Assembly: GCA_014874185.1 (NCBI GenBank)
Contig: JACWAF010000022.1
Coordinates: 1 to 40,354, forward strand
DNA length: 40,354 nt
Source: Nitrospirota bacterium
Lineage (GTDB): Bacteria > Nitrospirota > Thermodesulfovibrionia > Thermodesulfovibrionales > JdFR-88
Direction: 5' to 3'
The position numbers were made by a program, and so were the translations under genes. Below are positions 471 to 15,578 of the stretch, piece by piece; the stretch's first letter is position 1, and the number at the start of each line of letters is the position of its first letter. The notes below the pieces were generated by a model that saw only the letters and a list, made by a program, of their open reading frames with translations, made no database searches and was not told the origin of the DNA.

Positions 471-1301
471 TTACTCTATCTTCATGCTTATATCGGCGGC
501 GGGGGCGGAATGGGTCAGCGCCCCGGCGGAGATGATGTCCACGCCGGTTGCGGCGATCTCCCTTACCCTCTCCATGGTGACATTTCCAGATGCTTCGATA
601 AGCGCCCTGCCACGGTTCAGACGGACGCACTCGCGCATCTCCCGGAGGCCCATGTTATCCAGCATGATGACATCCGCGCCCTCTTCCAGGGCCGCCTTGA
701 ACTCGCCTATGTCCTTCACCTCTATCTCAACTTTCATTAAATGCATCTGACCTTTGGCAAGCCGTATCGCCTTCTTCACCCCGCCCGCGGCCTTGATGTG
801 GTTGTCCTTTATCAGGATGGCATCGTACAGGGCGAAGCGGTGGTTGGCCCCGCCCCCTGCCCTCACGGCGTATTTTTCCATATAACGCAGATTGGGAAGG
901 GTTTTCCTGGTGTCCACGATTTTAGCCTTTGTGCCCTTGAGCTTTTGCGCGTACTGGCTGGTGAGGGTGGCAATGCCGGAGAGGTGCTGGAGGATATTCA
1001 GCGCAAGCCTCTCCCCCGCCAATAGCGAACGGGCCTTACCCCGCACATGAGCGATGACGTCGCCTTTTTTTGCCTTCTCGCCGTCCTCAACGAGCGGCTT
1101 GAACTCCACCTCCGGGTCTATCTGGGCGAAGGCCTCACGGGCAAACGGCAGGCCCGCAATGACACAGGCTTCTTTTGAGATCACGCGCGCCCTGGCTTTT
1201 TTGTCTTCCGGTATGGTCAGAACCGATGTGATGTCGCCCATGCCCAAGTCCTCTTCTATGGCGAGGGCGATTAATTTTTTTACACCTGCCGGGATATCCA
1301 T
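471..1301 (-). CDS. nadC: Nicotinate-nucleotide pyrophosphorylase (carboxylating)
   Basis: Quinolinate phosphoribosyltransferase: converts quinolinate and PRPP to nicotinate mononucleotide, CO2 and PPi in cytoplasmic de novo NAD synthesis. The 276-residue product has the usual family length. The N-terminal half carries EEDLGMGDIT (about 16-25) and ERLALNILQHLSGIAT (about 96-111). The barrel carries DTRKT, the KYAVRAGGGANHR block and LIKDNHI, which supply substrate-binding Arg, His and Lys residues, followed by VEIEV, IMLDNM, EASGN and the closing ISAGALTHS. It is the last gene of a minus-strand run (response regulator, valS, small membrane protein, nadC), starting 3 bp after its upstream neighbour. 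nadA and nadB are not in the window. The Shine-Dalgarno is weak (AGAAG), suggesting translational coupling. Identity is very secure. Confidence 0.97.
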   Translation of the reverse strand: MDIPAGVKKLIALAIEEDLGMGDITSVLTIPEDKKARARVISKEACVIAGLPFAREAFAQIDPEVEFKPLVEDGEKAKKGDVIAHVRGKARSLLAGERLALNILQHLSGIATLTSQYAQKLKGTKAKIVDTRKTLPNLRYMEKYAVRAGGGANHRFALYDAILIKDNHIKAAGGVKKAIRLAKGQMHLMKVEIEVKDIGEFKAALEEGADVIMLDNMGLREMRECVRLNRGRALIEASGNVTMERVREIAATGVDIISAGALTHSAPAADISMKIE

Positions 1302-1304
1302 CTT

Positions 1305-1784
1305 CTATTTACGGAGGAGTGAAACGAAGCCCAGGATGCCGCCCACCACGGCACCTATGCAGAGCGCGCTTTTCAAGTCCAGAAGCGTGGAGACATTTCC
1401 TTCCACGTTCTTTGCCACGAGAAGCAGCGAGGCGCTGTTTTCAACTTTGGCGTTCTTCGAGACCACAATGCATGCGGCCGTCCTCTGCATATGGGTGCTG
1501 TCTTTGGAGACAACCACCGGAGTGAAAGAGAGGTTCAGGTGGTTTGACCGCCCGGCCACGATGCCGGTTATGGACTGGTTCATGAACAGCTCCGAAGTGC
1601 CCCTCATAATGCCGCTTGCGCCCTGGGTGATGTCCACGTGCTCGCCGTCTATGCTCAGGGCGGCCACTTGCTGAAGCTTCACATGGGCGCCCTCCACCCC
1701 CCTGACTCTGGAGTTCTTTACATTGACGAATTCGCCTTCAACGAAACTGCATTCGCTTCCGTCCAAAAGGGTCTCTTCGGCCAT
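1305..1784 (-). CDS. Hypothetical beta-repeat protein with C-terminal membrane anchor
   Basis: I do not recognise this family. The product of about 159 residues has a run of short Val/Ile/Ser/Asn-rich, Gly-punctuated strands (roughly 15-130) that look like a beta-solenoid, then one hydrophobic helix near the C-terminus (ALCIGAVVGGILGFVSLL) ending in Arg-Lys. No signal peptide is visible, so a tail-anchored protein facing the cytoplasm is likely. I place the start at the ATG at 1784 because GGAGGTG lies five bases upstream, inside the last valS codons; a GTG at 1790 would overlap valS by four bases. It sits between valS and nadC in one operon. Polymer-forming proteins such as bactofilins are only a loose analogy. 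Confidence 0.75.
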   Translation of the reverse strand: MAEETLLDGSECSFVEGEFVNVKNSRVRGVEGAHVKLQQVAALSIDGEHVDITQGASGIMRGTSELFMNQSITGIVAGRSNHLNLSFTPVVVSKDSTHMQRTAACIVVSKNAKVENSASLLLVAKNVEGNVSTLLDLKSALCIGAVVGGILGFVSLLRK

Positions 1785-4442: not shown

Positions 4443-5432
4443 CTACAACTCCGATTTGATGGCTTCTATTTCTTTTCTGACCGCGGTCTCGGCCAGATCG
4501 GGGACGGTCTCCCAGATGATTCGTTCTACGTCTTTCTTCAATCCGGCAGCTATCTCGCGCGCCACTTCCCTCACAACGGAGTCTATTATCTGAGGGGCGG
4601 AACGGTTGACGATGGCTTCAATGGAATTTTTAAGCTCCACTTTTATCCCGGGCAAAATAGCGTTGGTTATCATCTCGTTCACGTTTACGCCCCGGAAGGC
4701 GTCCGAAATGCCCTGGGAGATGGAGACCTGGATGGCCTTTTTTACCTCCGCCGATGTTACGGCGGGAAACCCGGTTTCCTGAGCAGATGCTGACGGCCCG
4801 GCTTGCGGAATATCATGGGCCGCTTCCGCCCCGGCCCCGGCAGGGAGACCCTTGCCGCTGAAAGGGTCCGCGGCAGTCTCTTCCTCTGCAATGGCGAAAA
4901 TTTCTTCGGGTTCCGCCTGGGCCGCCTCCGCTATTTCTTCAGCCTGGGCGGAAATCCCCTCAATGGACCAGAGGTCCGCCCCCGGTTCGGCCTGCGCAGA
5001 CGACTCTTCCTCCGCAAAGGCGATAACTTCCTCTTCGCCCTGGGCGGGGCCCGCGGTCGCGGCCTGAAGCACCGCGCTTATTTTCGTGATCAGGTCCTGG
5101 GACTCGAACGGCTTGATAATGTAATCCTCGGCCCCCACTTTTTGGGCAAGCTCCTCGTCAACGGGCTCGAACGCGCCGGCCAGAAGGAGCACGGGGATTG
5201 AAGAAGTCGCGGGATTGGATTTTATCTTCTCGCAGAGCTGATAGCCGTTCATCCTGGGCATCTCTATATCGGCAAGGACGATATCCGGCATGAACGAGTC
5301 CATGGCCCTGAGGGCCTCTTCCCCGTTCGCCGCCGCCTTGATCTCGAACCCCTCTTCGGCAAGCACCAGCTCCACAACCTTCTGTATGGTGATGCTGTCG
5401 TCTGCAAGAAGAAGTCTGGTCGCCATAGACAT
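4443..5432 (-). CDS. REC-domain response regulator with helical C-terminal domain
   Basis: Residues 1-125 form a receiver domain with the acidic pair D11/D12, phospho-acceptor D55 in VLADIEMPRMNG and K108 in YIIKPFE. The usual switch Thr/Ser before the third acidic turn is Ala (LLLAGAF), so signalling may be non-standard. Residues about 125-230 are an Ala/Glu-rich low-complexity linker. Residues about 235-329 are an amphipathic helical domain ending KKDVERIIWETVPDLAE, seen in gliding or polarity-type regulators of deltaproteobacteria and relatives (from memory). There is no DNA-binding or enzymatic output domain. It leads the operon with valS and nadC. Start ATG 5432 or 5426: neither has a Shine-Dalgarno, and a strong promoter lies so close that the mRNA may be leaderless. 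Confidence 0.9.
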   Translation of the reverse strand: MSMATRLLLADDSITIQKVVELVLAEEGFEIKAAANGEEALRAMDSFMPDIVLADIEMPRMNGYQLCEKIKSNPATSSIPVLLLAGAFEPVDEELAQKVGAEDYIIKPFESQDLITKISAVLQAATAGPAQGEEEVIAFAEEESSAQAEPGADLWSIEGISAQAEEIAEAAQAEPEEIFAIAEEETAADPFSGKGLPAGAGAEAAHDIPQAGPSASAQETGFPAVTSAEVKKAIQVSISQGISDAFRGVNVNEMITNAILPGIKVELKNSIEAIVNRSAPQIIDSVVREVAREIAAGLKKDVERIIWETVPDLAETAVRKEIEAIKSEL

Positions 5433-5434
5433 GA

Positions 5435-5463
5435 ATTGTACGGATAGCCCGCTAAAAAGTCAA
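5435..5463 (-). promoter_or_regulatory. Sigma-70 promoter of the response regulator-valS-nadC operon
   Basis: On the minus strand TTGACT (5458-5463) is followed after exactly 17 bp by TACAAT (5435-5440). The -10 box ends only two bases before ATG 5432 and eight before ATG 5426, so the expected start point lies at or inside the start codons. Confidence 0.6.
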
Positions 5464-6222
5464 ATCTTTTCCGGCCTGTTTTCCTGCCGAGGCACGCCTC
5501 AGCGGGAGGGCCCTCAACAGCTGCCGGAATGGCCTAAACCGCCTCCCGAACCACTGCCCCCGGAACAGGAAAAGGATGATATCTTCTTTTCCACTTTTTT
5601 CGATTCGCATTTGGGGCATGCGGGCTCGTCGGCGGCCTTCAGCTTGAGATAGGAGAAATCGCTGCCGCAGGCGGTGCATCTGTACTCGTAAACGGGCATA
5701 TTTTACACCTCCCGGAATAGTTTCGATTCTTATTAATTGTATATCACGGGGGTGAGGCAAGTCAAAAAGGGGGGAAGTGCCCGCGCGAGTCACAGTGGCT
5801 GAGCAGGAAATATCCGCTTTCCCTGTTATTGTTATAGGCAAAGAATAAGTGAGCGTAATTTGAATTATTTTCAACTCACCATTGAACTTCCACTCATAAA
5901 TGCGTTTTCCATCGATTATGGTCGCTTTCGTGTGGTGAGCTTTGTCTTTCTTTTTCGATTTATCCTTCTTGCCTGTAGTAAGATCATAGAAATCAGCATC
6001 TAATGTAGGATTGCCCTGATTATCTAGCTCTTCCCAATGAAGTCGAAGATGGATTTTATAGGGACCAAGCACAAAGGGTTCGAAAAAATGATTTTTTGTT
6101 ATTTCTCCTTTGCTATTTTTCTTTAATGTGAGTTCCTGCGTTTTCCCTGTTTTTAAATCAGCCTGTGCACGCACTCGCCCTGATTGTAAATCATCATGTG
6201 TTAGCGGCCTAATCGCAACCAT
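5452..6222 (-). CDS. Orphan ORF, doubtful 3' half overlapping fmdB
   Basis: The open frame covers 256 codons, but only the first 150 or so (down to about 5770) look like protein: a beta-rich, Lys-rich sequence with YKIHLRLHWEELDNQGN and a KKDKSKKKDK stretch. That part is clearly more AT-rich than its neighbours and I recognise no family. The remaining 100 codons run out of frame straight through fmdB and its promoter and become Arg-rich, as expected of a shadow frame. The native stop may have been lost by deletion. No Shine-Dalgarno precedes the ATG. It lies beside a repeat cluster, which fits a decayed foreign insertion. Confidence 0.35.
   Translation of the reverse strand: MVAIRPLTHDDLQSGRVRAQADLKTGKTQELTLKKNSKGEITKNHFFEPFVLGPYKIHLRLHWEELDNQGNPTLDADFYDLTTGKKDKSKKKDKAHHTKATIIDGKRIYEWKFNGELKIIQITLTYSLPITITGKADISCSATVTRAGTSPLFDLPHPRDIQLIRIETIPGGVKYARLRVQMHRLRQRFLLSQAEGRRRARMPQMRIEKSGKEDIILFLFRGQWFGRRFRPFRQLLRALPLRRASAGKQAGKDLTF
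5514..5699 (-). CDS. FmdB-family zinc-ribbon regulatory protein
   Basis: The 61-residue product begins MPVYEYRCTACG, the hallmark of the FmdB/CxxC_CXXC_SSSS family. It has two CxxC pairs (CTACG and CPKCES) that should bind one zinc, and ends in a Ser/Gly-rich tail (SCSGGSGSGGG) finishing in Cys. Family members are small nucleic-acid-associated or regulatory proteins of unclear function. GGGAGGTG lies just upstream of the ATG and a sigma-70 promoter (5736-5765) precedes it, so it is a separate unit from the overlapping ORF that reads through it in another frame. A GAGGC/GCCTC dyad lies just downstream but has no T-run. Confidence 0.9.
   Translation of the reverse strand: MPVYEYRCTACGSDFSYLKLKAADEPACPKCESKKVEKKISSFSCSGGSGSGGGLGHSGSC
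5736..5765 (-). promoter_or_regulatory. Sigma-70 promoter of fmdB
   Basis: TTGACT (5760-5765) and TACAAT (5736-5741) on the minus strand are separated by 18 bp, 36 bp before the fmdB start codon. Both boxes are identical to those of the response-regulator promoter at 5435-5463. Confidence 0.55.
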
Positions 6223-13161: not shown

Positions 13162-13647
13162 TTAATAACCCCGAAGAATTGATAAGGCCCCGCTTATGAG
13201 TAGCACAATTAAGCCAGCTGTAAAGTTCACCTTGACCAGATTGATGGATAATTTCTGCAGAGACCTCTTTTCAGTCTCGACTGTTGTTCTCATAATCCTT
13301 GGACCCAAGACCAGGCCCCTGTAGAAATGAATCGTAACCATGCCGAAAACCAGAATGGACTTCGTCATCAATGCCGAAGACCAGTTGTTTTCAAGGAAAG
13401 CGATTCCTGAACATTGTTTGTTCAGCCCCGCCAATACTGTCCCGGTTATAACCAGAACAATTATGCTCAAGTTTGCCGCCGGAGTGAACCTCTTTGAAAT
13501 CTCCCCCATGAGCTTGCCCGACCCTGCACCCAAGACTTGTCTGGACGACGGCATGGCAAAAAAAAGGGTGAAGATAATCCCCCCGATCCAGAGCGCTGCC
13601 GCAACACTATGTGCAAAGTAACAACTTATCAATATCAGCTCTTTCAT
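13162..13647 (-). CDS. Four-helix integral membrane protein (CopD/DUF4149-like)
   Basis: The 161-residue protein has four hydrophobic segments: about 5-30 with LISCYFAHSVAAALWIGGIIF, 50-70, 90-110 and 135-158. The first helix combines His with W-x-GG (H14, WIGG), and the third has MVTIHFYRG with another His, a pattern shared with CopD-like or DUF4149 membrane domains linked to copper or haem. The start is supported by GGGAGG seven bases upstream. It is the last of three minus-strand genes (arsR, Cys-rich mini-protein, this one) with gaps of 60-70 bp, so a metal- or redox-responsive membrane function is likely. Substrate and direction of transport cannot be read from the sequence. Confidence 0.75.
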   Translation of the reverse strand: MKELILISCYFAHSVAAALWIGGIIFTLFFAMPSSRQVLGAGSGKLMGEISKRFTPAANLSIIVLVITGTVLAGLNKQCSGIAFLENNWSSALMTKSILVFGMVTIHFYRGLVLGPRIMRTTVETEKRSLQKLSINLVKVNFTAGLIVLLISGALSILRGY

Positions 13648-13715
13648 CTCGTCCTCCCGTATTTCGAGATTCAGGCGGCGGACTGCTTTTATGCAATCCG
13701 CCGCCTTGATTTTAC

Positions 13716-13832
13716 CTATTTTGTCTTAATAGGCGGGATACAACCGCAACCACATGAACTCTTTGTCTCGCACGTGGCATCAGGCTTCTTTTCTTCGGGC
13801 TTTCCCTTTGGTTCCCTGGTGTCCTTTGCCAT
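13716..13832 (-). CDS. 38-residue Cys-rich mini-protein (CGCGC motif)
   Basis: This short gene has a near-perfect ribosome-binding site (AAAGGAGGTG at 13840-13849, seven bases before the ATG). It encodes a Lys/Glu-rich N-terminal half followed by TCETKSSCGCGCIPPIKTK: four Cys in 11 residues, three in a C-G-C-G-C row. No signal peptide or hydrophobic segment is present. The motif echoes the CTCGC at the C-terminus of the ArsR repressor encoded just upstream, suggesting both bind the same metal or metalloid. It lies midway between arsR and the membrane-protein gene in the same orientation. It resembles tiny metal-binding proteins or chaperones, but I know no named family. Confidence 0.75.
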   Translation of the reverse strand: MAKDTREPKGKPEEKKPDATCETKSSCGCGCIPPIKTK

Positions 13833-13895
13833 TCTTCATCACCTCCTTTCCGAATAAGATTATGCGTATTAACTAAAATACATATGAAAAAAATT

Positions 13896-14216
13896 TCAGC
13901 CTTTCTTTACTTTCAATGCTCCCTCCATGATTACTTGCTGTCCCAAGCACCCACACGTGCAGATGCGGTTAAGCCTCTGGCGGCATTTTTCAAGGGTGTC
14001 CCGGTTCAAGGAGTAATATATCCAATATCCCCGCCTTTCGTCTTTTACGAGGCCCGCACCCTTGAGCACCCGTAAATGCTGGGACACTGCGGACTGCGTT
14101 ATCCCCAGCGCCTTGGCCAGGACATTAACGCTCAGTGGCTCTTTTTTAAGCAGTTCGATAATCTCTATTCTTTTATCAACAGAGAATATTTTGAACAATT
14201 CCGCCGCGTCCTTCAT
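13896..14216 (-). CDS. ArsR-family winged-helix repressor
   Basis: A 106-residue ArsR/SmtB-type regulator: FKIFSVDKRIEIIELLKKEPLSVNVLA, recognition helix region ALGITQSAVSQHLRVLKGAGLV, then the wing DERRGYWIYYSLN. The classical ELCVC box of alpha-3 is absent. Instead a C-terminal cluster, ICTCGCLG, may be the sensing site. ATG 14216 is preferred over the GTG at 14228 because a GTGGGGA element then serves as ribosome-binding site. It heads a three-gene operon with the Cys-rich mini-protein and a CopD-like membrane protein and probably represses it. The inducer is unknown. Confidence 0.9.
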   Translation of the reverse strand: MKDAAELFKIFSVDKRIEIIELLKKEPLSVNVLAKALGITQSAVSQHLRVLKGAGLVKDERRGYWIYYSLNRDTLEKCRQRLNRICTCGCLGQQVIMEGALKVKKG

Positions 14217-14248
14217 GATAATCCCCACTATTTGTTTAAGTTACTGCT

Positions 14249-14277
14249 AATATACTTTATTGAGAGGCCGTTGTCAA
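14249..14277 (-). promoter_or_regulatory. Near-consensus sigma-70 promoter of the arsR operon
   Basis: On the minus strand a perfect TTGACA (14272-14277), exactly 17 bp, then TATATT (14249-14254). The leader to ATG 14216 would be about 25 nt. Such a strong promoter fits a repressed, inducible operon. I see no clear operator dyad. Confidence 0.75.
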
Positions 14278-14373: not shown

Positions 14374-14464
14374 GAGATTGCCACAACGGGGATTTTCAGC
14401 CCCAACAATAACTGCTCAACAACCCCTTTCGTATGTCATTGCGAGCGAAACGCGGCAATCTCGC
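14374..14464. repeat. REP/BIME-like element flanked by GAGATTGCC / GGCAATCTC
   Basis: GAGATTGCC (14374-14382) and GGCAATCTC (14454-14462) are inverted. Between them lie a GGGG..CCCC hairpin (about 14388-14403) and the GTCATTGCGAGCGAAACG sequence (from 14435), a common intergenic repeat type. A CTGTCCAAAATAAT unit at 14347-14360 resembles the terminus of the element at 1-281. No gene is seen in 14280-14489. Confidence 0.55.
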
Positions 14465-14489
14465 TTTTAATTCCCCTTATTAAGACACC

Positions 14490-15416
14490 TTATTCCTTAA
14501 ACAGCCAGGTGGAGAGATACCTCTCGCCCGTGTCCGGGAATATAACCACGACCAGTTTGCCAGCGTTATCTTCCCGCCCGGCCACCTGCAGAGCGGCCCA
14601 TAAGGCGGCCCCGCTTGAGATGCCGGCCAGTATGCCCTCTTCCCTCGCAAGCCTTCGGGCCATTATCCCCGCGTCATCATCCGCCACCCGGATTACCTCG
14701 TCAATAATTCCCCTGTCCAGCACATCAGGCACGAACCCCGCCCCGATGCCCTGGATCTTGTGCGGCCCGGGATTGCCGCCCGATAGAACGGGGGACGTGG
14801 CAGGCTCCACGGCCACGGCCTTGAACCCAGGCTTTTTTGCCTTCAATGCCTCGGCGACACCGGTGATTGTGCCGCCCGTGCCCACGCCAGCCACAAGGAT
14901 GTCCACCTGCCCGTCCGTGTCGCGCCAGATCTCCTCCGCGGTGGTTTTCTTGTGTATCTCAGGGTTCGCCGGGTTCTTGAACTGCTGGGGCATGAAAGAG
15001 CCGGGCATGGAGGCGGCAAGCTCTTCGGCTTTTTTTATCGCGCCCTTCATCCCCTCCTGGCCTGGGGTGAGGACCAGCTCCGCGCCGAATATCTTTAATA
15101 GCTGCCTGCGTTCCATGCTCATGGTCTCAGGCATGGTGAGTATCAGTTTATAGCCGCGGGAGGCCGCCACAAAGGCCAGCGCTATGCCGGTGTTGCCGCT
15201 GGTGGGCTCTATTATGGCCGAGCCTTCCTTGATGAGCCCTCTCTTTTCCGCGTCCTCTATCATCGCCACCCCGATGCGGTCTTTCACGCTGGAGAGGGGG
15301 TTGAAGGACTCCAGCTTCGCGGCCACCCCGGCCTTTGCCCCGGCCGTGATCCGTTGAAGCGCTACAAGGGGTGTGTTCCCGACGGTTTTTGTCAGGTCAT
15401 GGTATATCCGGGCCAT
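14490..15416 (-). CDS. cysK: Cysteine synthase (O-acetylserine sulfhydrylase)
   Basis: PLP enzyme making cysteine from O-acetylserine and sulfide in the cytoplasm. It has 308 residues, typical of CysK. The PLP lysine is K45 in SSVKDRIG, followed by the substrate loop PTSGNTG (71-77), the phosphate-binding GTGGTITG (178-185), and the late [10 protein letters not shown] and [10 protein letters not shown] blocks. I start at ATG 15416, behind AGGAGG; the open frame continues 50 codons upstream, but that stretch is not protein-like. A TATAAT lies at 15448-15453 (minus) without a clear -35 box. It is a single gene, divergent from the histidine kinase. A CysM-type or cystathionine-beta-synthase-type enzyme is less likely. 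Confidence 0.95.
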
Positions 15417-15578
15417 TTTTAACGCCTCCTGTTCTTTTTTGAAATCGATTATAACCTTTATGGACGGCATCAATCCTGAAGTTTGAATTTTTGAATTTCG
15501 GTGAGTTATTCTAAAGAAGAGAAATAGGGTTTTATATAGCGGGAAAGCACCTTCTGAATGGGTCATTTTTTAAAGCGA

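Follow-up and report, generated by a model that had tools for sequence, protein, structure and literature searches.

The arsR–mini locus

Here, we describe a small cysteine-rich gene and its putative repressor in a window of 40,354 nucleotides, i.e., the whole stretch of DNA that was analysed (Nitrospirota bacterium, contig JACWAF010000022.1). The genes, promoter, operators and hairpin of the locus lie on the minus strand. The arsR gene (13896..14216) encodes a winged-helix protein of 106 amino acids from the likely ATG, which ends in RICTCGC and carries C78 together with C86, C88 and C90. It is followed by a mini-protein gene, here called mini (13716..13832), whose 38-amino acid product, MAKDTREPKGKPEEKKPDATCETKSSCGCGCIPPIKTK, is rich in lysine and glutamate in its N-terminal part and has CGCGCIPPIKTK at the C terminus, and by an optional third gene (13162..13647) for an all-helical, CopD/DUF4149-like membrane protein of 161 amino acids. 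A cysteine-synthase-like gene (14490-15420, minus strand) lies directly upstream of the cassette, an adjacency that is not conserved elsewhere. The stretch at 14411-14470 (the ATTGCGAGCGAAACGCGGCAATCTC region) recurs at 80–86% identity on two further contigs of this genome and looks like a dispersed palindromic repeat.

An earlier note on this DNA had pointed out an overlooked 38-residue ORF with a Cys cluster behind a near-perfect ribosome-binding site. Both observations hold. The Shine-Dalgarno sequence AAAGGAGGTG (13849-13840) is followed by the ATG 7 nt further on and is near-identical in almost all relatives, and the gene is conserved in frame in dozens of genera. The spacing of the first two cysteines, given there as C-x6-C, is actually C-x5-C. 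C21, the first of them, varies among relatives, and the cysteines that are kept are those of CxCxC only; what persists across the family is this motif, the K/E-rich tail and the Shine-Dalgarno sequence. CxCxC is exactly CGCGC in 49 of the 73 intact minis, whose chains usually have three to four cysteines. Codon differences at positions 1, 2 and 3 number 90, 78 and 195, i.e., there is a third-position excess. A chance ORF was ruled out on these grounds (same slot, in frame, dozens of genera, third-position excess), and by its sequence record mini is a real, conserved gene. The earlier note had named missing or broken homologues as the result that would speak against the gene; most copies proved intact and few broken. 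Zero Pfam or NCBIfam models match mini, those of the described metallothionein families included, and we found no earlier description of the ArsR-mini pair in the literature, mainly freely accessible papers. Membership of a known family was thus ruled out.

Repressor, operators and RNA hairpin

ArsR scores 56.8 bits against PF01022 (cut-off 22) and 89.9 bits against NF033788 (cut-off 55), and its predicted model matches the structures of SmtB, CzrA and As(III)-responsive ArsR repressors as well as SqrR and BigR; the winged-helix domain of ArsR/SmtB metalloregulators is thus found by Pfam, NCBIfam and fold match, and the palindromic operator at the own promoter that is typical of the family is also present. 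As had been claimed, the protein has no classical ELCVC box (there is no cysteine in that region) and ends in ICTCGC; in the predicted model CTCGC sits just after helix 5. CxCxC is present in 83 of 83 ArsR proteins, this being the condition of their collection, and an additional Cys stands eight residues ahead of it in 74 of the 83. Among the structural matches of the model is PDB entry 6j05, which we take to be AfArsR. In AfArsR, three closely spaced Cys of one chain detect As(III)/Sb(III), and HgS3 formation has been reported for CxCxC peptides (PMC11212059). The ArsR described here likewise has three Cys in one short stretch; unlike in AfArsR, they follow a CxCxC pattern supplemented by C78, and the cassette is without arsenic genes.

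A 22-bp palindrome, TAAGTAtATanGcATAaACTTA, covers the arsR promoter in 77 of 83 loci, and in 81 of 83 a second copy stands immediately ahead of the mini ribosome-binding site; a site was called when its score exceeded the 99th percentile of dinucleotide shuffles. Because these sites had also served to train the operator matrix, their scores are flattered, but the gap is wide (median 22–23 versus about -10 bits). In the window, predicted operator 1, AAGTATATTAGCAGTAACTTA (14237..14257), overlaps the -10 element of the arsR promoter, TTGACA-17-TATATT (14249..14277), and predicted operator 2, TAGTTAATACGCATAATCTTA (13855..13875), lies between arsR and mini; the typical spacing in relatives, seen in 44 loci, is that operator 2 ends 8 nt before GGAGG. 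The only exact matches to the palindrome in the own genome are the two cassette sites, indicating that the regulon is local; a search for a wider regulon there gave one site with two mismatches, the same as the reversed-pattern control, and across 14 relatives the palindrome and its control gave about equally many matches outside the cassette. A wider ArsR regulon was rejected, there being no extra exact operator in the own genome, and ArsR seems, from the distribution of these sites, to serve only its own cassette.

A T7 run (13887..13893) stands just after the arsR stop and before operator 2, and at least six T occur at this position in 71 of 83 loci, compared with 6/73 and 1/83 in control stretches. 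A terminator at this place was rejected, since no hairpin precedes the run (median z 0). Our guess is that pausing at this run assists ArsR as a roadblock at operator 2.

Downstream of the mini stop lies a 13-bp RNA hairpin (GGCGGCGGATTGC/GCAGTCCGCCGCC; 13674..13705) with compensatory changes. In 73 of 73 loci, with or without the CopD-like gene, a hairpin with 8 or more pairs (median 14) begins about 8 nt past the mini stop, and the fold z is below -2 in 62 of these loci. In a covariation analysis of 21 sequences, 94.5% of the cells pair and changes on both sides occur at 9 of 14 pairs, whereas slid controls score far lower; hand-cut hairpins were the input of the alignment, which favours structure. 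Rfam gave a single chance-level match and no known RNA family. An intrinsic terminator after mini was rejected, as a T-rich tail follows in only 7 of 73 loci. We infer that the hairpin protects the 3' end of the mRNA.

Distribution, neighbours and change of regulator

A protein search recovered mini among 100 relatives with E values down to 2e-11, and most of these relatives have the gene order ArsR-mini-CopD-like, so that the triple whose search the earlier note had proposed is found widely. In a sample of 396 genomes of the phylum, the ArsR profile scores 132–205 bits in 37 genomes, with the next scores at 77 bits and below, and a CxCxC mini lies just downstream of the CTCGC ArsR in 37 of these 37 (36 found by profile and one, G121, by inspection). 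A scan across 84,980 species gave 80 named loci with ArsR identities of 65–88%, in MAGs labelled Nitrospirota, Deltaproteobacteria, Nitrospinota, Omnitrophota, Spirochaetes and others. This spread over phyla suggests horizontal transfer, with misbinned MAGs as the alternative; the genomes surveyed are mostly MAGs, and counts over related genomes are not independent, so that Fisher values, which came from an approximate table, were set aside. PLSDB holds no plasmid-borne copies. The cassette is widespread in mostly uncultured groundwater and sediment lineages.

Mini is intact in about 76 of the 83 distinct ArsR loci, i.e., 73 by strict scan and three with mini beyond an intervening small ORF. 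One copy (L123) is frameshifted inside a long A-run at about 5360-5490, either by assembly error or by real slippage. Two Omnitrophica loci (L169, L171) have an unrelated 55-residue Cys-rich ORF in the slot of mini just after arsR; its operator is the same and its ribosome-binding site similar. Mini is absent or truncated, with no replacement, in four of the 83 loci, where ArsR, and often the CopD-like gene too, is kept. In a separate subclade (L046, L047, L045, L178-L182, and L172, L176), ArsR is extended at its C terminus by a coiled coil, and a further small Cys protein is encoded between arsR and mini or in place of mini; this protein starts with MC, usually MCQ, and in L172 it has weak similarity to DUF5320 (19.3 bits, under the cut-off). 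In G121 (L219) the modules of mini (about 1241-1384, plus strand) are reversed, CGCGC being N-terminal and the charged tail C-terminal, indicating that the thiol motif is probably the conserved function.

The CopD-like membrane protein noted earlier beside ArsR and mini is above the cut-offs of both the CopD and the DUF4149 Pfam models, and the PF05425 domain is present; unlike CopD itself, it is far under the cut-off of the NCBIfam CopD equivalog NF033808 (44.5 versus 195) and is almost confined to the cassette, the class being found in 24 of 396 genomes and next to mini in 23 of these. Its fold has no significant PDB match. H13 and H107 are invariant within its helices and are compatible with haem or metal ligation. 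The gene accompanies the cassette in 22 of the 37 pair-bearing genomes; it is entirely missing from 13, and two more have only weak matches elsewhere. Its absence from 13 pair-bearing genomes leaves mini as the constant effector. The cassette proposed in the earlier note is supported, with a change: judged by gene content, its core is the arsR and mini pair, and the CopD-like gene is an optional third member. The gene after mini is convergent in several loci (L112, L119, L131, L137, L141, L143, L168), indicating that mini would be the last gene of its transcript there.

These arrangements bear on whether mini could be a metal-sensing leader of the CutF/CruR type, whose Cys motif and C-terminal prolines would stall the ribosome, whereupon the stem-loop would open and the CopD-like gene be translated. 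cutF has a Cys motif, a C-terminal PP with lysines and a stem-loop ahead of the next gene (PMC9973294), and mini shares these three elements in what is likewise a three-gene operon. However, mini and its hairpin are kept without the CopD-like gene and with a convergent next gene, and in many loci a convergent or unrelated gene follows where a leader has an obligatory downstream gene. The stem-loop does not shield a Shine-Dalgarno sequence either, as about 16 nt separate the conserved hairpin from that of copD (predicted unpaired probability intermediate, median 0.41); moreover, PP is not universal, CGCGC can be N-terminal and the mini sequence shows no apparent signal peptide. We regard a leader function as unlikely.

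Apart from ArsR, mini and the CopD-like gene, no neighbour is conserved, and no metal-resistance or sulfur gene is consistent. The charged, leader-like N-terminal part and the short Cys core of mini might recall a RiPP precursor with CGCGC as its core, but no modifying enzyme or exporter is conserved near mini across loci and the motif is N-terminal in G121, so that we give this reading hardly any credence.

In two genomes of different genera (G372 and G444; L218/L244, L221/L243), mini stands downstream of a MerR-type sensor, not ArsR. The sensor has Cys at the three ligand positions (C80, C115, C124), and mini is preceded by TTGACT-20-TATACT, a promoter whose 20-bp spacer and central dyad are typical of MerR targets; at these loci the three ligand Cys and the promoter spacer (19-20 bp) are thus those of MerR-type +2 sensors. 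In the MerR family, Cys rather than Ser at the first ligand position marks +2 metal sensors (PMC9909328). The operator/promoter occurs once in each genome, and a convergent gene follows mini in one of them, indicating that mini is the only likely target there. The three ligand Cys are shared with MerR, CadR and ZntR; unlike for these regulators, the best NCBIfam scores of the two proteins (TIGR02051, MerR, mercury; 135 and 143 bits) stay below the cut-off of 150.85, and no mer, cad or znt genes follow the sensor and mini at the two loci.

Two further readings are affected by this change of regulator. Mini could serve as a metallochaperone or a co-regulator, handing the ion to ArsR or the CopD-like protein or taking it away from them, with no bulk sequestering; the Cys clusters of ArsR and mini are alike, their pairing is near-perfect and the mini tail is charged and probably disordered. 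Yet ArsR is dispensable, as mini also pairs with the MerR-type sensor and is a solitary gene with a consensus promoter in G064, and we consider such a role rather improbable. The other reading places the cassette in reactive sulfur or redox stress, with ArsR sensing persulfide or disulfide and mini carrying sulfane sulfur. SqrR and BigR are among the structural matches of ArsR, and TauE-type or CysK-like genes lie near some loci, but sulfur genes are inconsistent as neighbours and ArsR is replaced by MerR-type metal sensors; we find this reading very unlikely.

A proposed metal-handling role

We propose that the pair is probably a self-contained metal-stress cassette in which a metal-induced thiolate peptide either sequesters a soft metal ion, probably a divalent one, or ferries it. 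ArsR, with C78 and CTCGC at the end of helix 5, would occupy both near-identical operators, at its own promoter and directly ahead of the mini ribosome-binding site. A soft metal ion bound by the ArsR thiols would release it from the DNA, and the 38-residue peptide would then be made in large amounts with the help of the near-perfect Shine-Dalgarno sequence and the protective 3' hairpin. The C-terminal CxCxC would offer three thiolates to the same ion, which it may sequester or pass on. Where present, the CopD-like protein may act downstream in transport or redox, which is the least certain step.

The metal or metalloid handling suggested in the earlier note thus gains indirect support from the three-thiol sensor site and the exchange for a MerR-type regulator. 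Two unrelated soft-metal sensor families each control mini, and a metal-binding effector is the simplest reading of this; the different small Cys-rich ORF that fills the mini slot in the two Omnitrophica loci also speaks for a metal effector. The MerR evidence would be consistent with Hg, Cd, Pb and perhaps Zn as soft divalent ions, and the ArsR thiol site with As(III)/Sb(III); copper is not favoured as the metal of the cassette.

SmtB-SmtA, BxmR-BmtA and AzuR-NmtA are ArsR/SmtB repressors with a palindromic operator near the promoter and metallothionein targets (PMC8790569). The cassette resembles them in its ArsR/SmtB-type repressor, palindromic operator and small Cys-rich protein; it differs in that the pair is co-directional, with two operators and with sensor thiols in CTCGC after helix 5. 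Unlike SmtA and BmtA, mini has a single CxCxC in 38 amino acids in place of a many-Cys multi-metal cluster, and no Pfam metallothionein match. With three thiols per chain, far below classical metallothioneins, its capacity would be about one ion per molecule. This low thiol number, the lack of a consistent metal-resistance neighbour and the four of 83 ArsR loci that have neither an intact mini nor a replacement argue against sequestration. By analogy, sequestration as in smtB-smtA nevertheless appears most likely and chaperoning comes second, and the best reading is that the cassette may work like smtB-smtA yet lie outside the known metallothionein families.

We also entertain, more tentatively and at somewhat less than even chances, a broader view in which mini represents a family of one-site thiolate proteins that serve as plug-in metal buffers for at least two unrelated sensor families, and in which ArsR blocks twice. 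The result would be a two-stage switch, i.e., a block at the promoter and a roadblock between arsR and mini, the latter aided by the conserved T-tract.

The finding adds a widespread small-protein family, overlooked by curated databases, in mostly uncultured groundwater and sediment lineages. The cassette is compact and carries its own sensor, promoter and operators; if it works as proposed, it would offer a ready-made metal biosensor and binding tag. The arsR-mini pair looks like one of the smallest metallothionein-like systems yet seen, and it suggests that a charged tail with one CxCxC tip may be enough for a metallothionein-like role.
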